From IMG/VR virus record IMGVR_UViG_3300050821_011420, positions 1-34,797 of that record: a DNA stretch of 34,797 bases. One strand, written 5' to 3'. Positions 6,230 through 32,776 of the stretch are shown here, piece after piece. The notes beneath the pieces were generated by a model that had not been told where the DNA came from, made no database searches, and was given only the letters and a program-made list of their open reading frames with translations. The stretch is from a virus. The translations under genes and the position numbers were made by a program. Every line of letters begins with the position of its first letter. Position 1 is the first letter of the stretch.

Positions 6230-7981
6230 CTACTTAAAGCCGAGCAGAACGTTGGAGGCTGTGCCTACGGTCGAGTTGGCGACCTGCGCGGTGCCGATAA
6301 CGGTTCCTGCTGTATAAGTGCCGGTGCACTTGATGCGCCCGTTGGTCGTGGTGTCGACAATGACGAAGTTGCCGATGGCGCAGGTGCCGGTGCCCAGCGT
6401 GAGAGCTACCGTCCCGGTTGTCATCGTCAGGCAGGAGCCAGCGACACCCGGAGAGTTAACGCACACGCCTATCGGAACGCCTGCGCCGGTGTCTGTCGTC
6501 GTCGTCACCACCACTTGATTCGCGTTGCTGGTGTCCCACTTGACCGGAACCGGGCCAGTGATGGCCGCGGTGGATTTGTAGCCCACCGCATTTCCGACGA
6601 CGCCCGAGGCAAGCGTGTTCCCGGTGTAGACCTGACCGGCCAGCAGATCGAGCACGGGCGTCGTGATGTTGGTGGGATCAACGATGTTCCCGGAGAACGT
6701 GTTCGGAGAACTGGCCGCGCCATCTTCAGTAATTCCTGCAACTCCGAAGCCGCTCACGTTGTTGCCCGAAATTGTGTTGTACTGCGCTCCCGTGCTGAGA
6801 TAGATGCCGTTATTCCATCCAGCTCCGGTTGGTGCGCTAACCGTGTTGCTAGAGACAAGGTTATTCTTGCCAACGACGACGATGCCGCTACTTACGTTGT
6901 TTCCGCCGACATTGATGACGTGCGCCCCGACGATCGAACTGCGAACCGTTCCGGCAGCAAAATAGACGGAGTTCGCGCCGGACGTGGAGCGCTGGGTATA
7001 AGTCCCCCCAATGAGGTGAACGCCTTCACTGTTGCTGACGAGCGCTGTTTGGGGCGTCCCGGTGGTGCCGGTGTTGCACCAGCAATCGATGACCTGAATG
7101 TTATTAGAAATCCCAAAGACGCCGCCGGTTGAGTTGGTCACGTTGATGCAGGCCGTGCCGCACACGTCGAAAATCGGTTCTACGATATGAACGTCGCTTG
7201 CGCCTATGCCGTTAATAGATAGCGCCGTGGAGACAACGCTAGTGGTGGACATATGATAAACGAACGTATCCACAGCCGATCCGGAGGCGAAAGACGTGCA
7301 GGTGGTAGTCGCTGCCGTTCCGTTACAGAGAAATTCGTCTATATAGAGGGAGTTTGTCACCCCACTGATCGACAGACCTACACTTGGCGCGGCATTTGCC
7401 CCGGCGCTGGTGATGACCTTCCAAATATTATTCTTGCCACCGGTGGTGTTGTAATTGATGAAGCTGTCGAACGCCTGGACCCAGTTCAGGGTGCAGTTAT
7501 AGCAATTCGCAAAGTTGAACCCGTTCGGAGTTCCGCTGTAGTTTACCGACCGACCGATCACCAGATTGTTGATGGTGAGCGTGTTGACGGGTGACCCACC
7601 CGTTCCATTGATGTCAATGATGTCCGCGCTCGCCGTGTCCTGTATGATTTGCGATCCGTACCCAATCTGGCCCTGAATGCCCATGTTCGTTGTGCCCGCT
7701 GGGATAGCCAGAGCACTAGTGATATGACAGCTTCCAAAAGGGAGGAGAACTGTACCATGCGCGGCAGCGGCATCATTGAAAGCATTCTGCAGCGCAGTTG
7801 TATTACCTGCAGTGCCCGCTGCTCCAGAGCAGTTAACGTTGTAGGGAGAGCCGGTCACTAGGAATGCAGGTTGGGTTGGCGAGCTTCCGCCAGAACCACC
7901 ACCGCCATTGTTGATCTGCGCGAACGCCAGGCCCGGCGGCAACAGCAGCAGCGAGAGAAGATTGAGCAAGAAAGTTTTCAT
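6230..7981 (-). CDS. Tail-spike-like parallel beta-helix protein with signal peptide, 583 aa
   Basis: The N-terminus MKTFLLNLLSLLLLPPGLAF, then A-Q, is a textbook Sec signal peptide. After a Gly/Ser linker comes a pectate-lyase-like start (NTTALQNAFNDAAAAHGTVL) and a long series of short Asn/Gly/Val-rich turns (for example NTISGNNVSGFGVAGI, then NTFSGNIV), typical of right-handed beta-helix tailspikes that bind or cleave surface polysaccharide. The last ~110 residues look like a cement- or trimerisation-type beta domain. The mature part has 14 cysteines, several closely paired (NCYNC, DCWCN). P22 tailspike is 667 aa. A signal peptide on a spike is unusual. Confidence 0.75.
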   Translation of the reverse strand: MKTFLLNLLSLLLLPPGLAFAQINNGGGGSGGSSPTQPAFLVTGSPYNVNCSGAAGTAGNTTALQNAFNDAAAAHGTVLLPFGSCHITSALAIPAGTTNMGIQGQIGYGSQIIQDTASADIIDINGTGGSPVNTLTINNLVIGRSVNYSGTPNGFNFANCYNCTLNWVQAFDSFINYNTTGGKNNIWKVITSAGANAAPSVGLSISGVTNSLYIDEFLCNGTAATTTCTSFASGSAVDTFVYHMSTTSVVSTALSINGIGASDVHIVEPIFDVCGTACINVTNSTGGVFGISNNIQVIDCWCNTGTTGTPQTALVSNSEGVHLIGGTYTQRSTSGANSVYFAAGTVRSSIVGAHVINVGGNNVSSGIVVVGKNNLVSSNTVSAPTGAGWNNGIYLSTGAQYNTISGNNVSGFGVAGITEDGAASSPNTFSGNIVDPTNITTPVLDLLAGQVYTGNTLASGVVGNAVGYKSTAAITGPVPVKWDTSNANQVVVTTTTDTGAGVPIGVCVNSPGVAGSCLTMTTGTVALTLGTGTCAIGNFVIVDTTTNGRIKCTGTYTAGTVIGTAQVANSTVGTASNVLLGFK

Positions 7982-8010
7982 GGAGAGCTCGTGAGAGAGA
8001 GGGGATCGAT

Positions 8011-9102
8011 CTACTTATTGAAGATGGCCTGCGACCACATGAAGTACGTGCTGGTGGCGGTGGCGGTGTTCTTGTTGTCGACAATCCAGGCGTAGCCCAT
8101 GGCGAGGCTCGCCGATGGCAGGTTGGTGCTGATGGTCGCAACCAGATTGCCGTTCAGATAAAAGTTGGCCGCGGTTGGGGCGAACGACGGCGTGAAGCCA
8201 ACTTCAAAGATGTAAGACGCGGTCGTCGAAACTGCGACGCCAGTGTCGACTACCGTAAAGTGCGTGCTGTCTGTGGAGCAGTACGCCTTCCAGTTGACAT
8301 CGGTCCCATCGGAGTGCCGGAACATGCACAGATTTCCGTTTGGGTTATCGGTCGAGAATCCTGATCCGCCGAAGGTGCCAGACGAGCCGTCCGTGTAGCC
8401 TACCCAGTAACGCGTGCTTGTCGTCGTCTGCGTCATGAGACGCTGCGACACTCGCGCGGTCAGGCCGGGGCTGGTTTGTCCTTGTCCGGGGTTCGCTCCG
8501 AAACCAACTTGGCAACCAGCGTTGGCGTTTACGGAACCCACTGCCGTAGATGTGAACAGCCTGCCTTGTGGCTCGGTAGCCGTTGGAAGAACGCCGAGTG
8601 CCTGAGTTCCAAAGCAACTGCCGCCGCCCACTACGTTGGTTACGGCTGTGTCTTCGGCGATCGTGTAGTAGAACTTTGTCGGGAATGTGAAGCCGGGCGA
8701 AGCCGCCCCGCTGCTTGGCGCCACCTGCGGAGCTACGAATGCGACATAGTTCGCCCCATCCGAGTAGAGGTCCGCGTTTTGCCCGGTCGCAAGCGCCAGC
8801 GTTCCCGAGGCCGTGCCGGTGGAGTTGATCGTGCACGACGAGCACGTGATCGTGACCGTGCCCGCGCCGATGTTTTTCGCAGAAAAGACCGAACCCGCCC
8901 CGAAGTTCGCAGTCCCACCGGCGGGCAAGGTGACGGCGGTCGCGCTGGCGTTCGAGAAGGTTGTGATGCGCGTCGAGTCGGCCCCGACGAACGTGTAGCT
9001 GGTCCCGGTCTGCACGTTCACGCCCGAGAGCATACGGGCAGAGTTGGTCTGCGCGCACAGCGCGGCGCAACTTAGAAAGATAAAAGCGAGAAGACGTTTC
9101 AT
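8011..9102 (-). CDS. Secreted-type fibre protein with C-terminal lectin-like domain, 363 aa
   Basis: The ATG at 9102 begins MKRLLAFIFLSCAALCA and then QT, a Sec signal peptide; the start 21 nt upstream would spoil the charged N-terminus. The mature part begins with a Thr/Ala/Gly-rich beta domain (GTSYTFVGADSTRITTFSNA). The C-terminal half (FKFYYTI-like start to STYFMWSQAIF) resembles concanavalin-like or laminin-G-like sugar-binding folds. It has six cysteines in the mature part. The ATG follows the upstream TAA by one base, so it is in the same operon as the 630-aa fibre. Receptor binding is inferred. Confidence 0.65.
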   Translation of the reverse strand: MKRLLAFIFLSCAALCAQTNSARMLSGVNVQTGTSYTFVGADSTRITTFSNASATAVTLPAGGTANFGAGSVFSAKNIGAGTVTITCSSCTINSTGTASGTLALATGQNADLYSDGANYVAFVAPQVAPSSGAASPGFTFPTKFYYTIAEDTAVTNVVGGGSCFGTQALGVLPTATEPQGRLFTSTAVGSVNANAGCQVGFGANPGQGQTSPGLTARVSQRLMTQTTTSTRYWVGYTDGSSGTFGGSGFSTDNPNGNLCMFRHSDGTDVNWKAYCSTDSTHFTVVDTGVAVSTTASYIFEVGFTPSFAPTAANFYLNGNLVATISTNLPSASLAMGYAWIVDNKNTATATSTYFMWSQAIFNK

Positions 9103-9103
9103 G

Positions 9104-10996
9104 TTAGTTCGAGGAGAAGACATCCAAGATCAGCTGCGAAGCCGGAGCTCCGGTCAACGAAGCACCGACACCGGAATTTACAGTCGCGCTGCCTGCGGCC
9201 GTCGATGCGGCCACGACCGTGAAAGTCACAGCGGCATTGTTGGCGTAAGTGACCGGCGAAGTTCCCGTCCCGTTCTGGCCCACGCCAATCGTGGCCACGC
9301 TACCGGTCTCGTTCGAAACCGAGCCCGCCCAGTTGTTTGTGCCATCGGAGACCATCGCCGCCTGCACGCCGGCATTGGTGGTGGTGATGTAAAGCGCATA
9401 GCTGGCGAGCACCCGGCAGGGGCAGCCGGTGGCGGGCATAGTGACCGCCTTCGAGAAAACGATCGTGTTCGAATTGGGGATCGTCCCATTGACAATGGTC
9501 GTCGTGGTTGCGTGTTGCAGAATCGAAACCGGGCTGCGGATCTCGGGCGGAAACAAGTCAATCGTGTAGGCTCCGGCGCCGATGTTGGTCGACATGACCC
9601 GGCCCACTACCTGGCCGCCGCCCGGATAATTTGCGCCGGCATCGTGGCAGTCGCCGTTCACCGTGATGGAGTTCTGCACGTAATCGCCGGCGGTGGTGGC
9701 TCCATCGAACTGGCAGGCAATCAAGCCCACCTGCGCAATCACCGCGCTTCCGGTCGTTCCGGCTCCGGAGGTGGTGATACCGACAATCCCACCCGTATCG
9801 CCGGTGCCCGTCATCACGGCCTGCGAGGGTGCGCTCGTTAATTTGGTGAGCGTGTTCAGCGTGGTGCCGGCGCCATTGTTCGCGACCGTGATGCCGATGG
9901 AGTTCGCGGAACTTCCTTCAATATCAGGCGAGAACAGCAGCACCTGGTAGGTGCCCGCGCCGCCGTTGGTGGTCATGACCCGCCCGATGATCTGGTTTTT
10001 CAGCGGATAGGTGGCCGAGCCCGAGTCGTGACAATCGCCCGCCACCGAAATCGAAACCTGCACGTAGTCGCCGGCGGTGGTCGCGCCGTCGAAGAGACAA
10101 TTCGCCAGGCCCGACTCCTGCACCACGGCATTGCCGGAAGCGCCCGCTCCACTCACCGTGATTCCGATGATGCCGGTCAGATCGGAGGTGGTCGCGATGG
10201 TCGCCTGTGCGGTCGAGTTGATCAGCTTGGTGAGCGTCGAGGTCGTGGTGCCGGTGGGGTTCGCGTTCGCAATCAGCGCGTAAGTGCCGGGCGAGTTCAC
10301 CACCACCGCGCCATTGATGGTCGGCGTCGAGAACGTTCCTCCGTTCACGGTCGGTGATGTGAGCGTCTTATTGGTCAGCGTGTCGGTGGTCGCGCGGCCG
10401 ACGATCGTGTCGGTCGTGTTGGGGAAGTGCAGGGCAATGTTGCCGGTCGGCGGCGGCGCGTCCAGCGTGGTCTGGTTCGGTGCTGTGCCCAGAATGATCT
10501 GGTTATCGGTGGGCGTGATGACGATGGGCTGCGTGAAGGTCTGGGTCTGCGACCAGGTGTTCGCCGTGTTCAGCAGCGCGAAGTAACTGGCGATGTTGTC
10601 GACACACCACTGCTGCACGTTGAGCGAGTTATAGGCGCAGAACTTGAAGGCCTGGTTGTTCAGCCAGATTTGCGTCTCGATGCCCGTGCCGTTCGAGGCC
10701 ACGCCGGCCGCATCCAGTGGAATCGGATCCAGATTCTGAAACGTTCCGGTGGAGTCGGCGTAGGTGTTCTGCAGGGTGGTGGTGCCGGCCTGGTAGGTGT
10801 AAAGCTTGCCGCCCGCGAGGACGTTGCCTTTTAGGTCGGTGAAGACCAGGCGCGGCGTGGGCGCGATCGCAACCGGAACCTGCGCGAAGGCCGCCGCACT
10901 AAGGTACCCAAACAGTAATAGCCCGGTCAGCAGCTTCGTAACCACCCACAGGAGACCTAGAGAGGAGCGGCTAAGGACGCTATCGTTAACAAGCAT
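9104..10996 (-). CDS. Tail fibre/spike base protein with signal peptide and duplicated domain, 630 aa
   Basis: The signal peptide (LLWVVTKLLTGLLLFGYLSA ending AAAFA-Q) is followed by a classic phage tail fibre N-terminal domain: LVFTDLKGNVLAGGKLYTYQ, then AGTTTLQNTYADSTGTFQNL and IPLDAAGVA. This domain normally starts within the first few residues of fibre proteins. Two tandem copies of a ~115-aa module (each with FDGATTAGDYVQ and GDCHD) occupy roughly residues 265-500. A C-terminal beta domain follows. It has eight cysteines in the mature part. ATG 10996 is preferred over ATG 11008 by a GGA 6 nt upstream. Confidence 0.8.
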   Translation of the reverse strand: MLVNDSVLSRSSLGLLWVVTKLLTGLLLFGYLSAAAFAQVPVAIAPTPRLVFTDLKGNVLAGGKLYTYQAGTTTLQNTYADSTGTFQNLDPIPLDAAGVASNGTGIETQIWLNNQAFKFCAYNSLNVQQWCVDNIASYFALLNTANTWSQTQTFTQPIVITPTDNQIILGTAPNQTTLDAPPPTGNIALHFPNTTDTIVGRATTDTLTNKTLTSPTVNGGTFSTPTINGAVVVNSPGTYALIANANPTGTTTSTLTKLINSTAQATIATTSDLTGIIGITVSGAGASGNAVVQESGLANCLFDGATTAGDYVQVSISVAGDCHDSGSATYPLKNQIIGRVMTTNGGAGTYQVLLFSPDIEGSSANSIGITVANNGAGTTLNTLTKLTSAPSQAVMTGTGDTGGIVGITTSGAGTTGSAVIAQVGLIACQFDGATTAGDYVQNSITVNGDCHDAGANYPGGGQVVGRVMSTNIGAGAYTIDLFPPEIRSPVSILQHATTTTIVNGTIPNSNTIVFSKAVTMPATGCPCRVLASYALYITTTNAGVQAAMVSDGTNNWAGSVSNETGSVATIGVGQNGTGTSPVTYANNAAVTFTVVAASTAAGSATVNSGVGASLTGAPASQLILDVFSSN

Positions 10997-11207
10997 GGTC
11001 GATTCCATCGAATATGAGTTGGTGAACTGGGAAGCGCGCGAGGTGTGGAAGTGCTCGAAGTGCGGCCGCTACCGTCACCGTAAAGCTGTGTTTGGGATCA
11101 TGCCGGCGCTCTGTTGCAGCCAGCCGGCGACGCTCATCGACCGCTATCAGCAGCCGATCGACATCACTGTGTCACAGTCTCTTTCGCCGTCAGCCTGCGA
11201 ACTCTGA
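10995..11207 (+). CDS. Possible small zinc-ribbon protein, + strand, 70 aa
   Basis: MVDSIEYELVNWEAREVW is followed by KCSKCGRYRHRK and later ALCC, giving C20/C23 and C40/C41, a plausible zinc ribbon. It fills the 167-nt space between two leftward genes. Its ATG overlaps the start codon of the 630-aa gene in the palindrome CATG (10994-10997), and its 3' end overlaps the end of the 627-aa gene by 44 nt. The ribosome-binding site is weak. The codon content looks protein-like, but the gene is not certain. Confidence 0.45.
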   Translation: MVDSIEYELVNWEAREVWKCSKCGRYRHRKAVFGIMPALCCSQPATLIDRYQQPIDITVSQSLSPSACEL

Positions 11208-13047
11208 TCGGCACTCTTTCAATTCCTGCCCGCTGCGCGGCGATCGCGCGCGCTCGGCCGTCGACCGAGACAATATTGTTGTCGGCGTCGCGGGTCTCGA
11301 GCACGGGCTCGACGGCTTTTCCCTTTTTGTAGCTCTGCGCCAGTTTGTTGATGAAGTCTTCGGTCTCGTCCGCGCTCATCCCGCGCGTTTGTTCGCGACC
11401 GGAAGCAAGACTCTCTTCGTCAACGCCCCAGCGCTTCAGCAGATCCGCCGGCGCCGCCGTGGTCATGACGCCAGGCTGGCCCGATTTCACTTCCGCCAGA
11501 GACTTTTTCAGCAGCGAAAGCAGGTCAGGCGTGGAAGAGCTGGCCGTCGCCGGTTTATTGAGCGCGTCTTTCAGTAGGTCCAGGTTGGTGCTTTGGCTCG
11601 AGCTTGTTTGACTCGAGGCTGCCGGCTCATCCGTGGGCGAAGCCGATTGCGTCGCGACCGGTGGCTTTGCTGCTATACGCTCGCCATTGACGACCTGCGC
11701 GACACGTGTCACTCCTGGAGCCTTACGGAGCGCGTTCCACGCCGTGCCCTTGGAATCGGTCGCCTCAAAATTAGCAGCCTGTTCCGGCGAGACGTCGCCA
11801 TGCACGTAGTGCTGGCCGCTGTTGGTGATCGATTCGAACTCACGCGTCGCGGGATCGTACTTGTAACCTTTCAGCACTTGCGAATCGACCGGCGTGAAGC
11901 CTTCCGGAAGTTTCACTTCCGCGGTCGGTGTGAACTGGTTGCGAAGGGGAACGCCTTTCGCGAGCGGCTTGCCGCCTAAAGCTTCGTTCAGTTGTTGCTC
12001 GAGCAGCGCAGACGTCGACGGCGGCGGCGGAGCTGGCGCGGCTGCAGGCGGCGGAGTTGCAACCGGAGCTGCAGCTGCGGCCGCCGGCGGTGGTGCCACT
12101 TCGCCGGCTAACGCGAGACCAGGTCGCGCGGGGATCGGCGCCGCCGGTACCGGCCTCGGTCCATAGATCTGCTCTGGTCCCACCTGGCCGGGCATGGTGC
12201 GCGCTTCGCTGACCAGCGCGGGATTGAGTACTTCCGGCGGCGGTGTGGCCGGTAGAGGAGCGCCCGGGTTGGTGGGCGGAGCTTCGGGAAGGGGTGCACC
12301 CGGATAAACCGGCGTCCGCAGCCCGTAATCGCGGCCGGGAACTTTGAAGTTGATGGCCTCGGCAGCGTCGGCCGGCGTCATGATGTTGAGCAGCGGTTTC
12401 AGTGGAACCGCTTTTTGGTTCGCCGCGGTCTCGGCGGCACGCGCCGCGAAGCGTATGGGCAACGTCGCGACTGCACGTGGCAGAGCCTGCACACCTTGCG
12501 AAATTCCCTCGGTCGCTGCCAGCGTGGCCGGCACCGTAACCGCATGGCCCACGACGCCGGCGGCGTCACCTTCCTCGGCAGACTTTTCCATTCCGGAAAC
12601 GTTCACGCCCAGCATTTCGCCGGCAGGCGCGAGGACCTTGCCGTAAACCGCGTTGTGCTGCTGCGTGCGCGCATCCATCTTCGCGCGCGCCTGATCCGAT
12701 TGCTGCTGCGCGATCTTCCACTTGTCAGCGTCGGAAACGTTCGGATCGGTCAGTGGATCGTAATCAGCGACGGCGTGATAGAGGCTTTTCCCCATGCCTA
12801 CCACGTCATCGGTGACCGATTTCCAGAAGCCGGGATGCTGCACGTCTTGCTGCTGGAAGGGTAGAATCTTTCCGCCGTTCTGGACCGCTTCCTGCACACG
12901 GTTCGCGGGCACAGGGCGAACCGTTCCGTCTGGCGCTTTGAAGTTGACGCCAGGAACAGCGCCTTTCTGCACGAGATCATGCAGCTGCTCGTACGGCACA
13001 TCTCGAGCGACGCCGTTCGGATCAAAAATAATTACTGTGGAGCTCAT
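11164..13047 (-). CDS. Ejection (internal virion) protein with KTSC and ParB-like domains, 627 aa
   Basis: The third of three large genes between hub and fibres, where podoviruses encode proteins injected with the DNA. Residues 1-60 look like two short beta repeats (DPNGVARDVPYEQLHDLV, APDGTVRPVPANRVQEAV). Residues 248-344 are Pro/Ala-rich. Residues about 387-445 match the small KTSC fold (GYKYDPATREFE, then GQHYVHGDVSPEQA). Residues about 572-619 (SVDGRARAIAAQRAGIERVP) resemble the ParB N-terminal/sulfiredoxin-like fold. ATG 13047 overlaps the upstream TGA (ATGA). The ejection role rests on position and architecture. Confidence 0.65.
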   Translation of the reverse strand: MSSTVIIFDPNGVARDVPYEQLHDLVQKGAVPGVNFKAPDGTVRPVPANRVQEAVQNGGKILPFQQQDVQHPGFWKSVTDDVVGMGKSLYHAVADYDPLTDPNVSDADKWKIAQQQSDQARAKMDARTQQHNAVYGKVLAPAGEMLGVNVSGMEKSAEEGDAAGVVGHAVTVPATLAATEGISQGVQALPRAVATLPIRFAARAAETAANQKAVPLKPLLNIMTPADAAEAINFKVPGRDYGLRTPVYPGAPLPEAPPTNPGAPLPATPPPEVLNPALVSEARTMPGQVGPEQIYGPRPVPAAPIPARPGLALAGEVAPPPAAAAAAPVATPPPAAAPAPPPPSTSALLEQQLNEALGGKPLAKGVPLRNQFTPTAEVKLPEGFTPVDSQVLKGYKYDPATREFESITNSGQHYVHGDVSPEQAANFEATDSKGTAWNALRKAPGVTRVAQVVNGERIAAKPPVATQSASPTDEPAASSQTSSSQSTNLDLLKDALNKPATASSSTPDLLSLLKKSLAEVKSGQPGVMTTAAPADLLKRWGVDEESLASGREQTRGMSADETEDFINKLAQSYKKGKAVEPVLETRDADNNIVSVDGRARAIAAQRAGIERVPIRVRRLTAKETVTQ

Positions 13048-14609
13048 TTATGTTCGGGGAATTGATCCCAGAAATTGCCACCAGCTTTCGGGGTGGTGGA
13101 GTTGTCGCCGAAATTCGGCTTCGCCTGCACGCCTTGCTGGTAGCTCTCTTTGAGGGATTTCTGTTTTCCGGCGAGCAGCTCGTCGGCAGTATCGGCATAG
13201 CCTTTTAACTGATCCCATGAACTGGCATTGTTGATTTTCTCGATCAAGTCGCGGCGATCCTCAACCCCGACGTTTGCGCCTGCAAAGGCCTTGCCGACTT
13301 CTCCCGCGAACGCGGAGCGTGCGACGTTGAAGTTCGTCGACTTGTCGCTGCCGAATTGTGTGCCGAGCCAGTTGCCGACCTTGTTTGCAAGCAGGAAATT
13401 GCCATTGTCGAGCGCCTCGGCGGTCTGCTTGAACGTGGCCATGTGATTCCGTGAGGTGCTGATGGCGGTGAGCTGCTGGCCATACGAGCCCGAGGTAAAT
13501 GCCTCTTTGACTTTCTTCTCGACGTCGAAGTCGCCGGAGTTGTAGTCGGGATTGATCGCTTTGACTTCTTTCAGAATGGCGATCTTCTGCGACAGCGGCG
13601 TGCGCGCAGCGAGAATATCCGACCATTTCATCTGGTTCGACGCCAGCAGTTGTGCAGTGTCCTTGATGTCGCTCGGGCTCGCCGCATTCTGCAGGTTGAA
13701 CGTGGTCACCGCGGGCGCTGTGCCGAGATCCTTCACGGTTTTGCCCGTGGGATCGACGATCAGCTGCCGGCCGTTTGCGGAAACAACTTTGTTCCCTTGG
13801 TCGACCGCTTCGCGCACGCTCTTGAGATAAGCGGGCGAAACGTTCTGACCTGCCATTTGTGGAACTCCGGCAGCTTCTGCGATGTCTGCGGGAAGCGGAA
13901 GCGGCGCCCCCATCTCGGCCTCGAGTTTCGCGGTTTGTGCGCCTGCCTCTTTCCCTTTTGAAATTGCCTCGCCGGTCTGCGCGACCTTGAGCTGCTGCTC
14001 GATCTGTGCATTGTGGTCAGTGAGCCCCATCTCGAAGGATTGCAGCTGGTCGTCGGTCGGCACAACTTGGCCGGCTTTCATGCCCATCAGGAGCTGTTGC
14101 GTCGTGGGATCGATCCGCTTCATGAGTTGCGGATTCGAGAGCACCTGGCTCGCCTGGTCCTGCGCGACTTGGGCGCGTTGTGTCGGATCTTTCACGTTTT
14201 TGATGGCATCGATGTGGCCGAGAAATTGGTTGTTGGTTTCCTTCTGTGCGGCGAGTTCCGAGGTGTCGGTCTTTGCAAGCTGGTCTTTGTATTGGGCGCG
14301 CTGGAGTGCGAGTGCGGAAAGGGTTTGCGGCGAAACGCCGTTCTGCTGTGCGTTCTGCATCCACTTGTCGAAGGTGTCGGGCTGGGACCAGTCGAGATCC
14401 TTTGCCGACGTCCGCAGCGTGTCCTGATCTTTGAGAGTGAGTGCCCGCTGCTGATTCTCTTGTTCGCCGGCGGTCGCTTGCTGCTGCAGGATCTGGCGTT
14501 GAATCGGCGCGTTCTGCAGCTGATTCCGCAAAGCGAGCAAGCGCGTAAAGTTCTCGCTGGGATCCGGTTGCTGGGCGACGTGAAGCGCGGTTAGAGGAAT
14601 GGAGGCCAT
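13044..14609 (-). CDS. Ejection/internal virion protein, 521 aa, helical
   Basis: It is almost wholly helical and Gln/Ala-rich (for example RQILQQQATAGEQENQQRAL), with a long coiled-coil region over the first 250 residues and another helical region near 330-500. No catalytic motif or signal peptide is seen. It sits between the 384-aa and 627-aa proteins, as the middle member of a three-gene ejection set like P22 gp7/gp20/gp16. Its stop overlaps the next ATG. The start at 14609 lacks a strong ribosome-binding site. Confidence 0.65.
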   Translation of the reverse strand: MASIPLTALHVAQQPDPSENFTRLLALRNQLQNAPIQRQILQQQATAGEQENQQRALTLKDQDTLRTSAKDLDWSQPDTFDKWMQNAQQNGVSPQTLSALALQRAQYKDQLAKTDTSELAAQKETNNQFLGHIDAIKNVKDPTQRAQVAQDQASQVLSNPQLMKRIDPTTQQLLMGMKAGQVVPTDDQLQSFEMGLTDHNAQIEQQLKVAQTGEAISKGKEAGAQTAKLEAEMGAPLPLPADIAEAAGVPQMAGQNVSPAYLKSVREAVDQGNKVVSANGRQLIVDPTGKTVKDLGTAPAVTTFNLQNAASPSDIKDTAQLLASNQMKWSDILAARTPLSQKIAILKEVKAINPDYNSGDFDVEKKVKEAFTSGSYGQQLTAISTSRNHMATFKQTAEALDNGNFLLANKVGNWLGTQFGSDKSTNFNVARSAFAGEVGKAFAGANVGVEDRRDLIEKINNASSWDQLKGYADTADELLAGKQKSLKESYQQGVQAKPNFGDNSTTPKAGGNFWDQFPEHK

Positions 14610-14615
14610 AGAGAG

Positions 14616-15770
14616 TTAGGTCGTCAGTTGGGAGTACATGTCGGGCGGAACGGTGGGAATTGTCTGCATGCCGCCGCCGCCGTTCTGGTTCAGTAAGGCG
14701 TAGAGGCTCGCGAGGTTGCCCAGGTTCTGCAAGCCGCCGCTGTAAGCGTTCGCCTGTCCCACGTATCCGGAGCCACGCGCGGCGCCGGCGTTATTGATGT
14801 TCTGCCCGATCATGTTGCCGGCATTGAGCAAGGTCGACGACACACCGCTCGCGGCGTTCGCGCCTGCCGAGTTCAGCTGCGAGGTTGCGGTCTGGCCGAG
14901 GCCGGCGAGCGCTGCCAGACGATTGAAGGTGTTGGTCTGGTTGTTCTCGAAGATGTTGTAGTTCTGCTGATACTGGCCGAGCGCGCGGTTGTAGACGTTG
15001 CCGTACTCGTTCGAGGCATAGTCCTGCGTGAACTGGTTCTCGGCGTTGAGCGTGTTCCCGGAGAGCAGTCCGCCGCGTGCGGCCGCGGAATTCTGAATCG
15101 CTTGCTGCGCGAGGTTCAGCCGGGCCATGTAGCCCGGGTCGTTGGTCTCCGACAGCGTCGGCGGCGTGAACTGCTGATCGAACCCCCGCAACAACGAACC
15201 GGTTGAACCCAGATTCGGATTGACGTATTGCCCGATCGAAGCCAGCCCGGCATTGGGATTCGCGGCGGTGGGTATGGTCGCGCTGGGTGCGCCCGGTGCT
15301 CCCGGAGGAGCCTTCACGGCGCCGCCGGCCATCGCATTCGATCCGTTGGGAATGCCTACCGCATTAAAGGGCTTGATGCCATTGATCGGTTGCGCGGGAC
15401 TGCCGGTGGAAGCTCCCGTCGTTCCGATGCCACCACCACCCGCCGTCGATCCGCCGCCGATTGCCGTCGAAGGCATCGTTGCGGAAGTGGGGAATTGAAT
15501 CCCTAGCAGGTTCGCTAGATTGGCGAGACCGGCCTGGCCAACACCGAGCCAGGGCGCTTCCTGTTGCTGCTGGTTGTTATAGACCTGCTCCTGGAAGTTA
15601 AGTGCGTTCTGCGCTTCCTGGGACTGCAGCTGCGCGGCATAGTCGGCGGCGTTGACCTGGGCATTCGCCGCGTTCCCGGCAGCGTTCGCCTGGATCGCGG
15701 ACGCGCCCAGAGAAGTCGCGCCGGCGACACCGAGCCCCAAACCCAGGGCAAGACCGGTCGCGATCGGCAT
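14616..15770 (-). CDS. DNA-ejection protein with hydrophobic N-terminus, 384 aa
   Basis: The first 30 residues (PIATGLALGLGLGVAGATSL) are Gly/Ala-rich and membrane-seeking. A Gln/Asn/Ala helix follows (NAADYAAQLQSQEAQNALNF), then WLGVGQAGLANLANLLG, a pattern common in podovirus DNA transfer proteins. A Gly/Pro/Ala linker occupies the middle, and a helical region with FNRLAALAGLGQTATSQL lies near the C-terminus. A good ribosome-binding site (GGGAG) precedes ATG 15770. The expected role is forming the channel for DNA entry. Confidence 0.7.
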   Translation of the reverse strand: MPIATGLALGLGLGVAGATSLGASAIQANAAGNAANAQVNAADYAAQLQSQEAQNALNFQEQVYNNQQQQEAPWLGVGQAGLANLANLLGIQFPTSATMPSTAIGGGSTAGGGGIGTTGASTGSPAQPINGIKPFNAVGIPNGSNAMAGGAVKAPPGAPGAPSATIPTAANPNAGLASIGQYVNPNLGSTGSLLRGFDQQFTPPTLSETNDPGYMARLNLAQQAIQNSAAARGGLLSGNTLNAENQFTQDYASNEYGNVYNRALGQYQQNYNIFENNQTNTFNRLAALAGLGQTATSQLNSAGANAASGVSSTLLNAGNMIGQNINNAGAARGSGYVGQANAYSGGLQNLGNLASLYALLNQNGGGGMQTIPTVPPDMYSQLTT

Positions 15771-15838
15771 TAAAACTCCCTTGTAATCTGCACGTTAGTG
15801 GTATATGTGGTCATAGCAAACCATGGCATGCTATAGGC

Positions 15839-16327
15839 ATGAACGAGAACACGAAATGGTGGTTTAATCTGAGCAAAGAAGAGCGACAGCGCCGAACGAA
15901 GCTTGCGCATGAGAGATATCGCGCGAAGTCAGAAAAGCGTGCAGTCGAAAAAGCGTGGAGAGAACGCCCCGAGGTGAAAGCGAAAATGCGAGCCACTGCT
16001 CGGGCTTTCCATCGAAGCAGATGGGCGCACCGCACGTACTTGAGCGCAAAGCTACGCGCCGAACGCATGGGCGTACCGTTCACGATTACTGAGTCAGATA
16101 TCGTCGTTCCGGACATCTGCCCTGTGTTTGGGTTACCCATTCGCATCGGGAGTAAGCCGGGCGCAGCGCACGGCGGCAGTTCGAACTCGCCGTCACTCGA
16201 TAGAAAGATTCCAGCGCTCGGATACGTACCGGGCAATGTGTGTGTCATCTCGCTGCGAGCGAACGCACTCAAGAACAGCGCAACACTTGAAGAGCTGGAA
16301 GCCATCGTCAGATATTGTCGAAGCTAG
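15839..16327 (+). CDS. HNH-like endonuclease, + strand cargo gene, 162 aa
   Basis: A very basic helical N-terminal half (residues 1-75, many Arg and Lys) is followed by a compact C-terminal domain: DICPVFGLPI, then SPSLDRKIPALGYVPGNVCV and ISLRANALKNSATLEELE. This C-terminal block is typical of small phage HNH-type or homing-like endonucleases. It is transcribed opposite to the virion genes and converges with the GNAT gene, with 4 nt of overlap. No ribosome-binding site is clear; a TATAGG lies 2-7 nt before the ATG. It is a mobile or selfish insertion candidate. Confidence 0.7.
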   Translation: MNENTKWWFNLSKEERQRRTKLAHERYRAKSEKRAVEKAWRERPEVKAKMRATARAFHRSRWAHRTYLSAKLRAERMGVPFTITESDIVVPDICPVFGLPIRIGSKPGAAHGGSSNSPSLDRKIPALGYVPGNVCVISLRANALKNSATLEELEAIVRYCRS

Positions 16328-16758
16328 AGAGCCTTCTGAAAACTCACTTCGACTTGCTTGTAGTGCATCGACTCATACGCCTTGCCTACTTCTGCCGTGG
16401 GCGCGGTGAACTGCATGTACTTCGCACCGAAACTGCGCGCCATGCGTTCGGCGCCGCGCAGCAGCATCAGCGCGGTGAAGCTCTTGCGATATTCGGGCTC
16501 GACGTACCACATCACCTCGCCGGCGGTGAGCTCGCCGGAGAAGTAGTGCGGGAAAACAATGAAGCCCAGCAATCCGCTGAGTGTGCCGTCTTCTTCTTCC
16601 GCCACGAGGATCATTCCCTTTTGCAGCACCTCGAGCGCGAGCTGGCCGGTGCGCTCCGGGTTATCGCCCACCAGGTCCTTGTACGGGCCTTCGCGCAAGG
16701 AGCGCGAACCCATCTCGACAATGCGGGGAACGTCTTCTGCTTTGGCTTCGCGAATCAT
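16324..16758 (-). CDS. GNAT-fold acetyltransferase-like protein, 144 aa
   Basis: The sequence begins MIREAKAEDVPRIVEMGSRS and continues with a central strand (MILVAEEEDGTLSGLLGFIV), then VEPEYRKSFTALMLLRGAER and a final QFTAPTAEVGKAYESMHYK, which follows GNAT order. The acetyl-CoA loop is degenerate (EYRKSFTAL rather than a clear Q/RxxGxG/A). In podoviruses a GNAT-like protein is often coded between tail and ejection genes (T7 gp13 is one case), so a virion-assembly role is as likely as acetylation. ATG 16758 is chosen by homology-like start; no good ribosome-binding site. Confidence 0.7.
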   Translation of the reverse strand: MIREAKAEDVPRIVEMGSRSLREGPYKDLVGDNPERTGQLALEVLQKGMILVAEEEDGTLSGLLGFIVFPHYFSGELTAGEVMWYVEPEYRKSFTALMLLRGAERMARSFGAKYMQFTAPTAEVGKAYESMHYKQVEVSFQKAL

Positions 16759-16799
16759 GGGTCGAGTGTGTTGCCAGCGGTAGGGTGGCCAGACCGTGA

Positions 16800-17069
16800 C
16801 TAGAAGGCCGTGTGCGGAATGCGCCGCCAGACATTCGCAGCAATGCATATATAGAGAAAGTTTCCGTCGAAGAGAATCTGGCCGGGCGTGCCCTTGTCGG
16901 TCGAATTCACCGGCGTTGCTCCCACCGCAGGCGAGGTCAAACGCGCGGGCAACAACTGAAACCACTGGTACCAGGGCTGCGCGGGCTTGCCGGTGGGTTT
17001 CCCTTGCTCATCCACTTCATGGAACGATTGTTCGCGCGGCGGTGCCGGCTGAAATTTCGCGACGGCCAT
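16800..17069 (-). CDS. Small virion-associated protein, 89 aa
   Basis: A Pro-rich and polar N-terminus (PAPPREQSFHEVDEQGKP) leads to a short beta domain: NSTDKGTPGQILFDGNFLYI, then CIAANVWRRIP. This ending is widespread in phage tail-region proteins and tail fibre segments. The ATG at 17069 is directly next to the TAG of the 611-aa gene, so it belongs to the same operon. A tail-accessory role is inferred from position. Confidence 0.6.
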   Translation of the reverse strand: MAVAKFQPAPPREQSFHEVDEQGKPTGKPAQPWYQWFQLLPARLTSPAVGATPVNSTDKGTPGQILFDGNFLYICIAANVWRRIPHTAF

Positions 17070-18905
17070 CTATGCCCGCTTCACCAGTTCCTTGGTCATG
17101 CGTTCCGAGGGCTTATAGCCCGGATCCGCGTCGAGGTAGGCATCCACGATGCGCAGCGGCGCAGGATCGGAGAACAGCACCTGATAGACCCGATCGCGGG
17201 TGGTGCCCAGCTGGCGCCAGATCACGCGCTTTTTGTAGTCGCCGATTCTGCCCAGGCTCTTTAGGTGCTCGTTCGACCAGGTGTGCGCGAAATCGTTTGA
17301 CCAGGAGAGCGAAATCTGCGGACCGCGGACGAAGTTCCCGGTCTTCTGCGTCTTGATCACGGCATGGCCGCCGCCGACGTCGGTCACGAATAAATTCCAG
17401 ATGGTTTTCCCGGAAATCGAAATCATCTGCAGCGCTTGCAGATAGCCGGTGTTCGCGGTGACGGGAACAGCCTGGAGGACACCCAGCGGGGTAATGATGA
17501 TCTGCCACGAGGTGCCGTCGCCCGCCGAATCGTTGAAGTAGAGCAGCTGCGGGCTGGGCAGACCGCCGATCGGCAGCGCAGTCACCAGCACACCCAGGTC
17601 GTTTACCTGCACGGCCCAGGTCTGCCCGGTCGAATCGTTCAGATACAACGTGGTGGTCGGACCTGAGTCGAGAATGTTTGGCCCGAGTCCCGTCTCGCAG
17701 TCGAGCCACAGATACCAGTGCGTCGAGAATTGGTTCTCGACCGAGATGTGCGGCGCACGCCTGAGTCTGCGGATCGGGTTGCCGTTGTCGGTCACAAACT
17801 GCCACGACCCGTTGACCAAGGTCGGAAGCGCGCTTTGATACACCAGGCCGGTGGTGGGATCGCCCACCAGGTGCATGCCGAAGTTGAAATCGTGGAAGAG
17901 CGCCCGATCCATCTGGAAGGTGCCGTTCTGGGTGTTCCAGTAGCCGCGCTCGGTCCACATCCCGTTGGCCGTGTCGTAAACCCAGGTCTTCTGCGCGGTG
18001 GGGAAGTTCACCACGACGTTTTCGTGCCCGTCACGCTGCTCGGAATACATCACGCAATCGGAGATCGTTCCGTAGCTCTGAATTTCGTGCTCGACCGCAT
18101 GGTTTGAAACGCGCACCGGGGTGAAGCCGTTCGCCCGGCGAACCATGGCCTGGCCGCGTTCGGAGGCGTCCAGCCAGAAAATGGAGTTGTCGGCTTTGCA
18201 GATGGCCGCCGGCGCGCCCAGTCCGTTTTCGATGTAGCCGCCCTGAATGGTGTCGAAAGGGAAGGGGAAGTTGCCCGAGCTGTAGTACGGCTGAATACCC
18301 TTCGGGCTGAAGACCCAGAGCTGCTCATGGTCGACAAAGAGTGCGCTCGGGAGTTCCGAGAAATTCTGCACGCCGGCGGCGCTCGTTCCCGGCCAGGTAG
18401 TCGCGTCGCCCGCCGCCGAGGCCTGGAGCTTATTCTGGCCGAACATGATAGCGACGAAGAATCCGGAAAAGTAGGCGACCTGCCCGACCGGGCCGCCGAT
18501 GGTCGCAGTCACCTCCACAATTGTGTTCGCGTTGATGTCGTAGACCCAGGCACGCTGCTCGGAGGAAATCAGAATCTGCGTGCCGCCGATCGCGATCGAC
18601 ACCGGCAAGCCGTCGGAGGCGATGGGAGTCGAACCATTGCGCTGGGTTTGGCCGCCGCCGGCGAGCAACTCCCAAAGCGCGGTTCCGGCCACTGAAAACG
18701 TGCGCGCGCGGAGGGTCTTGATGCCGCGCATGGGAGCGCCGCCCAGGTTGTAAACGAGATTCTTGCCGGGCGTCGCGTACATCGCCATCGGTCCTTTGCC
18801 GACCTGACTCTCGATAGCCTCGACGTAGAGGTTCATCGTGGTCTGGCAGTCCGCATTCAAGGACTGGCTGCGGTATGTTGGGCCGACAAACCCAAATCTA
18901 GACAT
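17070..18905 (-). CDS. P22 gp10-like packaged-DNA stabilisation/tail hub protein, 611 aa
   Basis: The N-terminus FVGPTYRSQSLNADCQTTMN, then LYVEAIE and ATPGKNLVYNLG, and the C-terminus WSNDFAHTWSNEHLKSLGRI, then YKKRVIWRQLG, are landmarks of the P22 gp10-like family, which plugs the connector and joins the tail. P22 gp10 is 472 aa. The extra length is partly an insertion at about residues 415-520 with three related beta units (YLNDSTGQTWAVQV, YFNDSAGDGTSWQI, ISGKTIWNLFVTD). No signal peptide is present, unlike its neighbours. Confidence 0.8.
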   Translation of the reverse strand: MSRFGFVGPTYRSQSLNADCQTTMNLYVEAIESQVGKGPMAMYATPGKNLVYNLGGAPMRGIKTLRARTFSVAGTALWELLAGGGQTQRNGSTPIASDGLPVSIAIGGTQILISSEQRAWVYDINANTIVEVTATIGGPVGQVAYFSGFFVAIMFGQNKLQASAAGDATTWPGTSAAGVQNFSELPSALFVDHEQLWVFSPKGIQPYYSSGNFPFPFDTIQGGYIENGLGAPAAICKADNSIFWLDASERGQAMVRRANGFTPVRVSNHAVEHEIQSYGTISDCVMYSEQRDGHENVVVNFPTAQKTWVYDTANGMWTERGYWNTQNGTFQMDRALFHDFNFGMHLVGDPTTGLVYQSALPTLVNGSWQFVTDNGNPIRRLRRAPHISVENQFSTHWYLWLDCETGLGPNILDSGPTTTLYLNDSTGQTWAVQVNDLGVLVTALPIGGLPSPQLLYFNDSAGDGTSWQIIITPLGVLQAVPVTANTGYLQALQMISISGKTIWNLFVTDVGGGHAVIKTQKTGNFVRGPQISLSWSNDFAHTWSNEHLKSLGRIGDYKKRVIWRQLGTTRDRVYQVLFSDPAPLRIVDAYLDADPGYKPSERMTKELVKRA

Positions 18906-18921
18906 TGGAGACGGTAGGGAA

Positions 18922-19305
18922 CTACTGGATGTAGATCACGTCGATGACGTCGGCATTGGTGCCGTTGATGTACCACTGGTTCAGATCGGTGGCGGCCTGC
19001 ATGCCGAAAGCGCCGGTCGTGATCGATCCACCGGGCGAGCCGGAGGAGATCAGCGCGCCACGCGTCGAGCTGGTGTTGACGTCGCCCACGCGGATGGTGT
19101 GCGCGGCGTTGTTCTGAATGTAAATCTCTTTGCAGGGGATCGACGAGGTCGAGACCTGGGTCGTCGAGGCGCCGATGGTCACCTGCAGGGTGTGAACGCC
19201 GGGAACGTAGAGGGAGCTCTGGGCGTGCCCGGCGAATACGAGCACCAAAAGAATGCACGTGAGAACTAAAGCGAAGAAAAGATCGAGACGGCGGGCTTGT
19301 GTCAT
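18922..19305 (-). CDS. Small virion-region protein with signal peptide, 127 aa
   Basis: The ATG at 19305 has GGAG about 9 nt upstream and gives a Sec signal peptide: DLFFALVLTCILLVLVFAGH ending A-Q. The mature ~97 residues form a beta-rich domain (HTLQVTIGASTTQVSTSSIP, then EIYIQNNAAHTIRVGDVN and GALISSGSPGGS) like small cement or fibre-tip proteins seen in phage tail regions. It lies between the gp4-like and gp10-like genes. The longer ORF to 19422 is rejected because it overlaps the upstream gene and hides the signal. Confidence 0.7.
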   Translation of the reverse strand: MTQARRLDLFFALVLTCILLVLVFAGHAQSSLYVPGVHTLQVTIGASTTQVSTSSIPCKEIYIQNNAAHTIRVGDVNTSSTRGALISSGSPGGSITTGAFGMQAATDLNQWYINGTNADVIDVIYIQ

Positions 19306-19309
19306 GACG

Positions 19310-20080
19310 CTACTCCCGTAATCCAGTGAGGAAATTGAAATCTGGCCGGCCATTGCCCGGCGAGCCTGGCATGCCGCTGTTGGTATCGATCCGCGGCGGC
19401 CCGGAGTTGTTGTCGAGCACACCCTTGGCGGCTTCCTTCAGTAGTCCGATCAGCGTGGGCGAGGCCTCTTTGCCATAGGACGGACTCAACCGCACAGCCA
19501 GCGACAAAACGATGAAATCCCAATAGGCCGCCGGCAGCCCGATCGAGGCCTGCAGCGAGATCGCCTGCGCCAGGCCCACCCAGAGCTCGAGGCGGACCGG
19601 GCTGGCCACGTTGCAGATCGGGTAAAAGTTCAGCGTCCCGAGCGGCGTGTCGGGACTGTAAAAAAGGTCGGTGACGATCGATGAGGTCAGCGACTTCAGC
19701 GGATTCGCGTTCCACCAGTCGTCGTCGCGGATATTGATGGGCGTATCGACCGGGTTGGACGAGGCGCTATTGAGAACGAACGACGCGCCGACCACTTTCA
19801 CGGGTCGGAGCGGAACATTGAAGTCTCCGCCTGGCCCGATGGTGTGCGGCGCGTGGTTGGCCTGCAGGTTAAACAGCGGGAAGTTGACGTTGTAGATCAG
19901 CGAACGTTTCGCGTTGATCAGGTCGATCAAGCGCTGCAGCTTCTCGAGGCCCCAGGCCGCCATATCCGCGTCGATCGGCTCCTGTGGGTTTTGAATGCCC
20001 GCCTCGGTGAGCGCCGAGGAAATGATGTCCTGCGGCTGCGCCGTGACAGAAGCGTTCGCGGCTGTGAAGACGACGGTCAC
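19310..20080 (-). CDS. P22 gp4-like head-to-tail connector/tail accessory protein, 256 aa
   Basis: The pattern DIISSALTEAGIQNPQEPID, then LEKLQRLIDLINAKRSLIYN, followed by TIGPGGDFNVPLRPVKVVGA is characteristic of the gp4-like tail accessory factor that binds the portal after packaging. The C-terminal half contains LPAAYWDFIVLSLAVRLSPS, also typical of this family. The GTG start at 20080 immediately follows the TAA of the 118-aa gene. P22 gp4 is shorter (166 aa), but many podovirus homologues are about 200-260 aa. Confidence 0.8.
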   Translation of the reverse strand: MTVVFTAANASVTAQPQDIISSALTEAGIQNPQEPIDADMAAWGLEKLQRLIDLINAKRSLIYNVNFPLFNLQANHAPHTIGPGGDFNVPLRPVKVVGASFVLNSASSNPVDTPINIRDDDWWNANPLKSLTSSIVTDLFYSPDTPLGTLNFYPICNVASPVRLELWVGLAQAISLQASIGLPAAYWDFIVLSLAVRLSPSYGKEASPTLIGLLKEAAKGVLDNNSGPPRIDTNSGMPGSPGNGRPDFNFLTGLRE

Positions 20081-20437
20081 TTATTTCGCCCGGCGCTCTG
20101 TTTTGCTCGAGTCATACAAACGAGCGTTCGGGTCGGGCAGCGGCGGTGCGATGTAGGCCTCTTTCACCCAGCCATCGGCCAGCGCTTTCTCGAGCTCCTC
20201 GGGCGTGTTCACAAGCTGTGTGAGGTGCTCCGAGGGCACTTTCTCGACGTCGACCACCTCGTGCAGCGTGTTGCGGTGCTCGATCATGCGGAAAGGCTCG
20301 CGCGGGTGCTTATAGACCACTCGCGGATATTCCAGGTGCGGGATCTGCTTGGTTGGAGGCGTCGCCGGATCGAGCGAGGTGAGCCCGCCTTGGCCGGGCT
20401 TGGCGTTGAATTTCTCTTCATCAATGGCAAACGGCAT
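20081..20437 (-). CDS. Small virion-operon protein with EYP...VN motif, 118 aa
   Basis: The sequence contains HLEYPRVVYKHP and later LVNTPEELEKALADGWVKEA, a pattern repeated in many small podovirus proteins coded between coat and connector. A strong ribosome-binding site (AGGAG) precedes ATG 20437. The next gene (92 aa) carries a related EYPK ... LVNSAEEE block, so these may be paralogues. A virion accessory role is suggested by position; the function is unknown. Confidence 0.65.
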   Translation of the reverse strand: MPFAIDEEKFNAKPGQGGLTSLDPATPPTKQIPHLEYPRVVYKHPREPFRMIEHRNTLHEVVDVEKVPSEHLTQLVNTPEELEKALADGWVKEAYIAPPLPDPNARLYDSSKTERRAK

Positions 20438-20476
20438 GATGCTTTTCTCCTGGTGAGATTCGGACGCTTGGGAGGT

Positions 20477-20755
20477 TTACGCGTCTTCCGTGAAATCGCG
20501 CAGCTTCGGCGTTCGGCGCGAACCCGTGCGGGTGGCCGCGGACTCTTCCTCGGCGGAATTCACGAGAACTGTTTTCGGGGAGTCGTCTTCGTTTTTGCCG
20601 ACGACAACGTGTTTCGGGTACTCGCGGTGCACGTGCAGAATCAAACGCACGGAGATCTCACGTGGTGCGTGCGGATCTTTGGCGAGGGCTTCCATAGCAT
20701 CGGTGATGCGCTGCTCTTCGCCCATTGCGAAGGAAGCGCCGGTGGGTAGCGTCAT
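20477..20755 (-). CDS. Small virion-operon protein, 92 aa
   Basis: The body HVHREYPKHVVVGKNEDDSP continues to KTVLVNSAEEESAA and shares the EYP-to-VNxxEE arrangement with the neighbouring 118-aa protein. The ATG at 20755 has a good ribosome-binding site (GAGGAAA). The C-terminal tail is basic (RTGSRRTPKLR). It is preceded by the long inverted repeat at 20784-20841. Confidence 0.6.
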   Translation of the reverse strand: MTLPTGASFAMGEEQRITDAMEALAKDPHAPREISVRLILHVHREYPKHVVVGKNEDDSPKTVLVNSAEEESAATRTGSRRTPKLRDFTEDA

Positions 20756-20783
20756 AAAGATTTCCTCTTATCCGAAAAATGGC

Positions 20784-20841
20784 CCCTGGCGTGGATCCCG
20801 CGCATGTGGGTGTGGAGTCGAAACGAGATCCACGGCCAGGG
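20784..20841. repeat. Long imperfect hairpin between two leftward genes
   Basis: CCCTGGC plus GTGGATC (20784-20797) pairs with GATCCAC plus GCCAGGG (20827-20841), a 14-bp stem with one bulged G (20834) and a 29-nt loop. It lies between the stop of the 277-aa gene and the start of the 92-aa gene. It has no T-run, so it is more likely an RNA-processing, stability or attenuation site than a classical terminator. Confidence 0.55.
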
Positions 20842-20879
20842 CGACGACGATTGCTGGTTGGCAATCAGCCGACGGTCGA

Positions 20880-21713
20880 TCAGTAGCTCGGAACGTACTT
20901 CTTATTCGTCTGGTCGAAGGTGAAGCAGAGGATTTTGTTCACCACTGCCGTCGACGCCAGAGCGATGTTGTTGGTCGCGGTGGTCGTGAAGATCGCATCG
21001 GGAATCACACAGAACGGCGCGCCGATAATACTGGTCGCCGACCCGCCGCCGGATCCGAGGCCCGCTGAGGTGGACGTGCCCCAAGCGGTAATTGCATTCG
21101 TTCCGGTGACGTGGAACAAAGGCCCGCTGGGATTCGTCGCGCCAGCCACGGAAGCCACGGCCGTGGTAACCCCTGAAACGCCCGCGGTGTTGAAGTAACC
21201 GGGCACCCAGGAATTCGTCACGGTCGAACAGAGCCACTGGTTTCCTGTGCGAACGTTGATGTACGGAGTCACCAGCGTATTCGCCGGGGTGCAGCTGCCC
21301 GCCGGCTCGACCGCGAAAAACTGGTCCGGCCGACCGACGAACACAATTGCACCCGACAAATGCGGAGATGCCACCGTCGAAGCCGCACCGCGCACAACCG
21401 TGACCGTAGTTCCGGTCACTCCGGTGACCAGCATTGCTTCCGCCGTACCGAGTCCGCCCGAAGTGCCGTCCTCGATAAACAGCAGAGAGCCGCCGCTTGC
21501 GGGAATCGCTACGTTCCCGCCGGTGGCGCCCGGAGCCGAGATATTCGTGGCCGAGGTCACCGTGATTGCGGTTTGCCCCGCGCTGGTGATCGCATTGGAG
21601 AGAGTGGTGACAGTGAGCGCAGTCTGCGCCGATGCTGGGGTACCCAGCAAAAAGGCGACGGCGACGACAGCGCAAAGAAGAACTGCAACGCGAGAGAAAG
21701 TTGATTTTGTCAT
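20880..21713 (-). CDS. Secreted-type virion protein beside the coat gene, 277 aa
   Basis: RVAVLLCAVVAVAFLLGTPA, then SAQ, forms a Sec signal peptide. The mature part is Thr/Val/Ala-rich beta structure (VTTLSNAITSAGQTAITVTS), with GGSLLFIEDGTSGGLGTAEA and VTVVRGAASTVASPHLSGAI, similar to small head-decoration or adhesin-like domains. It has four cysteines. It is coded directly after the major capsid gene in transcription order, where decoration proteins are often found; the hairpin at 21728-21760 separates them. The function is inferred from position only. Confidence 0.6.
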   Translation of the reverse strand: MTKSTFSRVAVLLCAVVAVAFLLGTPASAQTALTVTTLSNAITSAGQTAITVTSATNISAPGATGGNVAIPASGGSLLFIEDGTSGGLGTAEAMLVTGVTGTTVTVVRGAASTVASPHLSGAIVFVGRPDQFFAVEPAGSCTPANTLVTPYINVRTGNQWLCSTVTNSWVPGYFNTAGVSGVTTAVASVAGATNPSGPLFHVTGTNAITAWGTSTSAGLGSGGGSATSIIGAPFCVIPDAIFTTTATNNIALASTAVVNKILCFTFDQTNKKYVPSY

Positions 21714-32738: not shown

Positions 32739-32776
32739 GAAGGGGCGCAGGAGCGGTGGGTGTTGGTCGGGCAAGG

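Follow-up and report, generated by a model that had tools for sequence, protein, structure and literature searches.

The virion module and its signal-bearing proteins

The viral record IMGVR_UViG_3300050821_011420 of IMG/VR, analysed here over its whole length of 34,797 nucleotides (hereafter the window), carries on its minus strand a P22-like virion module in which PHROGs profiles recover the gene order of P22, an order also kept in relatives. A preliminary description of this DNA, made from the letters alone, had proposed that five proteins of the module carry Sec signal peptides cut between alanine (Ala) and glutamine (Gln). All five open reading frames (ORFs) are indeed found on the minus strand. 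At the start of each stands a charged n-region, then a hydrophobic core, then a cut after small residues with Gln as the next residue (Table 1). With a slash at the predicted cut, the N-termini read MKTFLLNLLSLLLLPPGLAFA/QINN for the protein starting at 7981, MKRLLAFIFLSCAALCA/QTNS for that at 9102, MLVNDSVLSRSSLGLLWVVTKLLTGLLLFGYLSAAAFA/QVPV at 10996, MTQARRLDLFFALVLTCILLVLVFAGHA/QSSL at 19305 and MTKSTFSRVAVLLCAVVAVAFLLGTPASA/QTAL at 21713. Judged by sequence, they have the make-up of Sec signals: a positive n-region, a hydrophobic core of 10-20 residues and a cut of the A-x-A type.

The gene at 10996, which codes for the tail fibre or spike, has a long n-region and an uncertain start (an ATG, either at 11008 or at 10996, or else an internal GTG); the core and the cut site are kept whichever is used, and no alternative start codon lies from -5 to +45 residues around the cut. 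In the protein at 19305 the cut is ambiguous (FA/G or GHA/Q). Homologues of this small protein were searched for and none was found; the corresponding slot of the relatives L002, L026, L048 and L050, the gap between gp4 and gp10, is occupied by larger, unrelated proteins that bear signals. Pfam gave 0 matches for any of the five proteins.

Two other kinds of exported protein were considered and rejected. Lipoproteins, the substrates of signal peptidase II (SPII), do not fit, as the residue after the predicted cut is Gln in all five and there is no lipobox cysteine (Cys). Nor do substrates of the twin-arginine (Tat) pathway, the motif S/TRRxFLK being absent from the five N-termini; that of 19305 has ARR without RRxFLK.

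Table 1. Signal-bearing proteins of the window, control genes of the virion module and other genes discussed in the text (aa, amino acids; a slash marks the predicted cut).
Feature	Coordinates	Strand	Basis and remarks
Post-coat protein, 277 aa; signal 1-29, ASA/Q; 4 mature Cys	20880..21713	minus	homologues in 55 loci
Small protein, 127 aa, with its gene between those of the gp4-like and gp10-like proteins; 1 mature Cys	18922..19305	minus	N-terminus
Tail fibre/spike, 630 aa; AFA/Q; head-binding domain at mature 1-105; Cys pair 82/93	9104..10996	minus	profile match
Fibre-like protein, 363 aa; LCA/Q; 6 mature Cys	8011..9102	minus	phrog_8780 minor tail protein, partial match
Beta-helix-like spike, 583 aa; AFA/Q; 14 mature Cys	6230..7981	minus	fold predicted from repeats alone
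P22-type coat protein, without signal (control)	21779..23020	minus	phrog_283, E = 2e-51; 0/81 orthologues with signal
gp4-like head-tail adaptor, without signal (control)	19310..20080	minus	PHROGs; 0/90 orthologues with signal
gp10-like head closure protein, without signal (control)	17070..18905	minus	phrog_578, E = 1.7e-75; 0/61 orthologues with signal
Portal, without signal (control)	24286..26445	minus	PHROGs; 0/55 orthologues with signal
Three ejection-type proteins (627, 521, 384 aa), without signal	11164..15770	minus	nearly Cys-free in orthologues
GNAT acetyltransferase	16324..16965	minus	phrog_1249
ORF of 162 aa, like a homing HNH-type endonuclease	15839..16327	plus	by eye
O-acetyltransferase / O-antigen acetylase-like gene	31680..32774	minus	phrog_3333, E = 4e-34

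Conservation of the signals among relatives

With the coat protein as query, 302 related stretches came up among viral contigs; 80 of these were taken, plus six in bacterial genomes, making 86 loci. Their genes were called mechanically and scored by a simple home-made signal-peptide rule (the scorer), which recovered seven of seven known exported proteins of Escherichia coli at plausible sites. By this measure a signal is present in 17/17 fibre orthologues and in 50/55 post-coat proteins, while it is found in 0/402 orthologues of the coat, gp4, gp10, portal, scaffold (0/72) and ejection (0/43) proteins. Of the five post-coat misses, two (L005 and L088) have a signal recognisable by eye. When the same N-termini are shuffled with their composition preserved, 9% score positive. 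The preliminary description was thus right to say that the intermingled neighbours (coat, portal, gp4-like, gp10-like and ejection proteins) lack signals, and this extends to the scaffold. Among relatives the signal sequences are widely divergent, and therefore it is the function that is conserved, not the letters.

The coat family also occurs in a different arrangement. Seven loci whose coat protein is about 50% identical (L056, L058, L061, L064, L068, L070 and L077) have two gp4-like genes each, and several of them hold a large signal-less fibre-like protein between the two.

The fibre head-binding domain and the register of cleavage

Mature residues 1-105 of the fibre are recognised by hmmsearch as a tailspike head-binding domain (7eeq_A, E = 2e-14; 9vyg, E = 7e-12), which bears out the earlier remark that the 630-aa protein has its attachment domain right after the signal; a Pfam scan of the domain gave nothing useful. 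Scanning viral contigs with the whole window fibre brought up one relative only. Alignments of the domain recovered more: the two viral scans made with them led to 137 non-redundant copies, 103 without a signal and 34 with one (L103, L191 and L196 by eye, the other 31 by the scorer).

The signal-less copies have their methionine (Met) 27-32 residues ahead of an anchor motif, with a mode of 30. In the signal-bearing copies it is the predicted cut that lies 28-36 residues ahead of that motif, again with a mode of 30 (19/34). Since the cut-to-anchor distance matches the Met-to-anchor distance, cleavage at the predicted site would restore the N-terminus of the cytoplasmic form; that it would regenerate the normal, ancestral N-terminus of the head-binding domain has good support from these alignments. 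In the window fibre a signal of 38 residues stands ahead of the domain, which reaches an N-terminal position only after the predicted cleavage. As it does not start at Met, it is a variant of the 7eeq family and not a standard member.

Homologues devoid of the hydrophobic N-terminus had been named beforehand as what would speak against export, if found in close relatives. The close relatives keep the signal and only distant ones are signal-less; those with a named host are phages of Pseudomonadota. Indeed, in annotated phages of Xanthomonas, Rhodoferax, Vibrio and Pseudoalteromonas the homologues lack a signal, with Met directly before the head-binding domain.

The domain also turns up in a 6.4-megabase (Mb) single-contig Acidobacteriota chromosome (L301:13692-14999; L302), within a signal-bearing fibre of 315 aa that is followed by a second signal-bearing ORF. 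Nearby are a small terminase of the Sf6 type and a lysozyme sharing 41% identity with that of the window, and the locus is a partial or remnant prophage.

Cysteine pairs and the post-coat protein

Cysteine content follows the signal. Exactly two Cys are present in 28 of the 34 signal-bearing copies of the head-binding domain (two have three, four have none); of the 103 signal-less copies, 95 lack Cys and eight carry a single one, and two are never seen. If copies are sorted by the scorer only, two or more Cys are found in 27/31 versus 3/106, and those three show signals by eye. The pairs occupy two alternative places, about 26/83 or 82/93 and their equivalents, and each is always complete. Beyond the domain, the total number of Cys is even in 65/78 signal-bearing proteins, whereas among controls it is even in 157 and odd in 148, and 37/48 post-coat proteins have exactly four mature Cys. 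This pairing points to disulfides that would be formed in the periplasm, an oxidising compartment.

The post-coat protein was modelled with AlphaFold from 36 sequences as an all-beta protein, with a predicted local distance difference test (pLDDT) score of 78.7. Aligned with VIA-align, the N-domain of the model (mature residues 1-102) gives Z values of 10-11.7 with the phage Chi tail tip, the VP1 capsid, the Mystique tail tube and the GP4 portal-tail complex; unrelated rows stand at about 7.5-8. Rows for ATPases in Foldseek and VIA-align, at Z of about 8 or less, were discounted as a common arrangement of beta strands. In this model the N-domain would have a docking-type beta fold of phage virions, and the protein is probably a head or tail fibre or decoration protein. 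Two relatives without a signal, L082 and L119 (0 and 1 Cys), begin at position 1 of the domain, where the predicted cut of the signal-bearing homologues lies. A tblastn search with the mature protein found no match in 50,697 phage records.

Hosts and independent phage lineages

The hosts are Acidobacteriota. In the cultured Acidicapsa dinghuensis (4GSKX) a 1.16-Mb scaffold contains, at about 650-680 kb, a related prophage of the same layout, and further relatives are found in metagenome-assembled genomes (MAGs) of the phylum. With the same scorer, Gln follows the cut in 16/48 of the signals of A. dinghuensis itself and in 0/18 of those of E. coli. Genomes were also drawn by taxonomy, in a draw that left out two anchor genomes and covered the phyla Acidobacteriota and Pseudomonadota only: the head-binding domain comes with a signal in 6/7 Acidobacteriota (five by the scorer, L299 by eye) versus 0/8 Pseudomonadota (Fisher p = 0.0014; 0.007 by the scorer alone).

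Phages of Tunturiibacter, another member of the Acidobacteriota, have been isolated (PMC11924767), and we examined Tunturi_1 (host Tunturiibacter psychrotolerans X5P2) to Tunturi_4 using the deposited gene starts. In the podoviruses Tunturi_1 and Tunturi_2 signals are carried by gp12, gp13, gp14 (tail spike / pectin lyase), gp16 and gp17 (virion structural), whose mature Cys number 20, 10, 20, 1 and 32-34, respectively; the proteins of the head, portal, tail and lytic tail that were examined have none. In Tunturi_1 the residue after the predicted cut is Gln for gp12, gp13 and gp17. In the siphovirus Tunturi_4 signals are present on gp113 and gp114 (8 and 20 Cys). The Cys counts in the three phages are thus mostly even. 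The signal-bearing proteins of Tunturi_1 show no significant sequence similarity to those of the window. No passage on signal peptides was found in the article describing these phages, and the term 'mass spectrometry' is absent from its main text (PMC11924767).

Other genes of the window

Scaffold and terminase genes were also identified with PHROGs. Assignment to DNA ejection comes from phrog_598 for 14616-15770 and from position for the other two ejection-type proteins, of which the 627-aa one (11164-13047, minus strand) has weak matches to ParB_N (E = 0.0012) and KTSC (E = 0.0027), both under the Pfam cut-offs. The HNH-like ORF is inserted in the virion operon on the opposite strand. Adjoining the ejection genes, within the virion module, is the GNAT acetyltransferase gene; L108 has one similarly placed, and in the Tunturi phages acetyltransferases are annotated close to tail genes. 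As for the O-acetyltransferase, such a gene directly follows the signal-bearing fibre in L108, and one is annotated in Tunturi_4. Because these genes occur in the window, in L108 and in Tunturi_4, surface modification may accompany these phages.

A proposed assembly route and its alternatives

How would a tailed phage make use of exported fibres? The N-termini would act as functional Sec signals of the host type, to be cut by leader peptidase at Ala/Gln; both steps are strongly inferred from sequence. The cut would leave the head-binding domain with the N-terminus that signal-less homologues obtain from the initiator Met, and the mature proteins would then be oxidised in the periplasm, yielding disulfide-bonded and probably sturdier fibres; these two steps have good support. 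Meanwhile heads would assemble and package DNA in the cytoplasm without fibres, as can be expected from P22. With the inner membrane opened by the holin, the heads would meet the periplasmic fibres, and docking would be the last step of assembly. This final step is proposed because in P22 the tailspike is the last part to attach, and finished heads can receive it in vitro. We think it likely that the receptor-binding fibre or spike and the decoration proteins of this P22-like Acidobacteriota phage are exported by Sec. They would then probably be incorporated into virions. With somewhat less assurance, we lean towards a two-compartment assembly of the virion in at least three lineages of Acidobacteriota tailed phages, where heads made in the cytoplasm would receive at lysis fibres that have been exported by Sec, cut and oxidised in the periplasm.

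Several observations weigh against such a route. The protein at 19305 makes the weakest case of the five, and signals were judged by a home-made rule and by eye, not by SignalP. There are four transitions between signal and no signal on the tree, and one origin is not rejected. With so few transitions, the independent events behind the Cys association are few as well; strong in number, the association appears as yet without phylogenetic replication within the fibre family. One of the anchors, L087/L287, is a signal-bearing contig binned in a betaproteobacterial MAG, possibly by mistake. Tunturi_3, an Acidobacteriota podovirus, has no signals among the structural genes examined. Finally, experimental evidence, be it proteomics of virions, sequencing of N-termini or an assay of export, was found for none of these phages.

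The preliminary description had left the choice between completion of part of the virion in the periplasm and secretion of free adhesins or decoys. The latter is the main rival: the proteins would be exported yet never enter virions, being released during infection or lysogeny as free adhesins, depolymerases, receptor blockers or decoys. Bacteria do export tailspike-like and fibre-like proteins, such as Pantoea WceF, which has a Tat signal (PMC7949094), and the MAT fibres of Bdellovibrio, which have export signals (PMC10769870), and the O-acetyltransferase of the window, related to O-antigen acetylases, is consistent with surface modification. However, a free decoy would have no need for a head-binding domain with an exactly restored N-terminus, and the genes lie within the late virion operon. 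Furthermore, no signal-less fibre candidate was seen among the window genes: every spike candidate has a signal, and the virion would be left with none. We therefore hold free secretion to be unlikely; periplasmic completion is favoured because of the head-binding domain with its restored N-terminus, the paired Cys and this lack of a signal-less fibre. The two might be combined, with exported fibres docking on progeny virions and, before lysis, occupying receptors or shielding the surface against superinfection. This would follow if export preceded lysis by minutes, and it fits all the data; but no signal for crossing the outer membrane was noticed, and fibres confined to the periplasm would have no access to surface receptors until lysis, which makes this double role rather improbable.

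The remaining explanations deny that export matters, or that it happens at all. The N-termini could be uncleaved membrane anchors tethering fibre assembly to the inner membrane. The length of some n-regions, such as that of the 10996 gene, would suit this, but the conserved small-x-small/Gln motif, the close register with signal-less homologues and the gained Cys pairs would not, so that we give anchoring very little credit. An artefact, chance hydrophobic N-termini or wrong starts with the real proteins beginning downstream, draws on the rate of positive shuffles. Against it stand clade-wide conservation despite divergent signals, the signal-less controls and the lack of a start near the window fibre cut. 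For the fibre and post-coat families chance and mis-start are thus rejected and in effect refuted; as a general account artefact is scarcely credible, and 19305 is where it may still apply.

Comparison with known systems

To our knowledge, tailed-phage virions are held to be built wholly in the cytoplasm, and no tailed phage is known to us in which export of virion fibres has been demonstrated. No report of exported virion proteins of tailed phages was found in the open-access library searched, most subscription journals lying outside that coverage. The fibre family is already known; the proposed export route is new. If true, export of receptor-binding proteins in one clade of short-tailed soil viruses would break the rule of cytoplasm-only assembly, would explain phage fibres that rely on disulfides, and would make the last assembly step depend on host Sec, on the oxidation machinery and on holin timing. 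Beyond what the preliminary description contained, the analysis proposes a clade-wide trait associated with Acidobacteriota, a cleavage that would regenerate the ancestral start, and Cys pairs that track the signal. The combination of an Ala/Gln signal with a head-binding domain provides a sequence signature by which uncultivated soil viruses can be assigned to Acidobacteriota, whose viruses are little known, and the prediction is directly testable with existing isolates.

Among known systems, tailspikes of the 7eeq/9vyg family, for example that of Xanthomonas phage PBR31, share with the window fibre the head-binding domain, the register of the mature N-terminus and P22-type coat, gp4 and gp10 neighbours. 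Known members start at a cytoplasmic Met, without signal or Cys pairs, whereas the window family has both. Filamentous phages make their coat proteins pIII and pVIII with cleavable Sec signals and assemble at the membrane without lysis. They share with the window phage the use of Sec signals on virion proteins (predicted ones in the window), but the latter has a tail, and its head and the packaging of its DNA belong to the cytoplasm. The MAT fibres and WceF are likewise fibre- or tailspike-like proteins with export signals; they differ in being encoded by bacterial genes outside a virion operon, with no virion for docking. A parallel in host and in kind of protein is that of Tunturi_1, Tunturi_2 and Tunturi_4, found here to be Acidobacteriota phages with signal-bearing, Cys-rich spike or tail proteins, which in Tunturi_1 are unlike those of the window in sequence.

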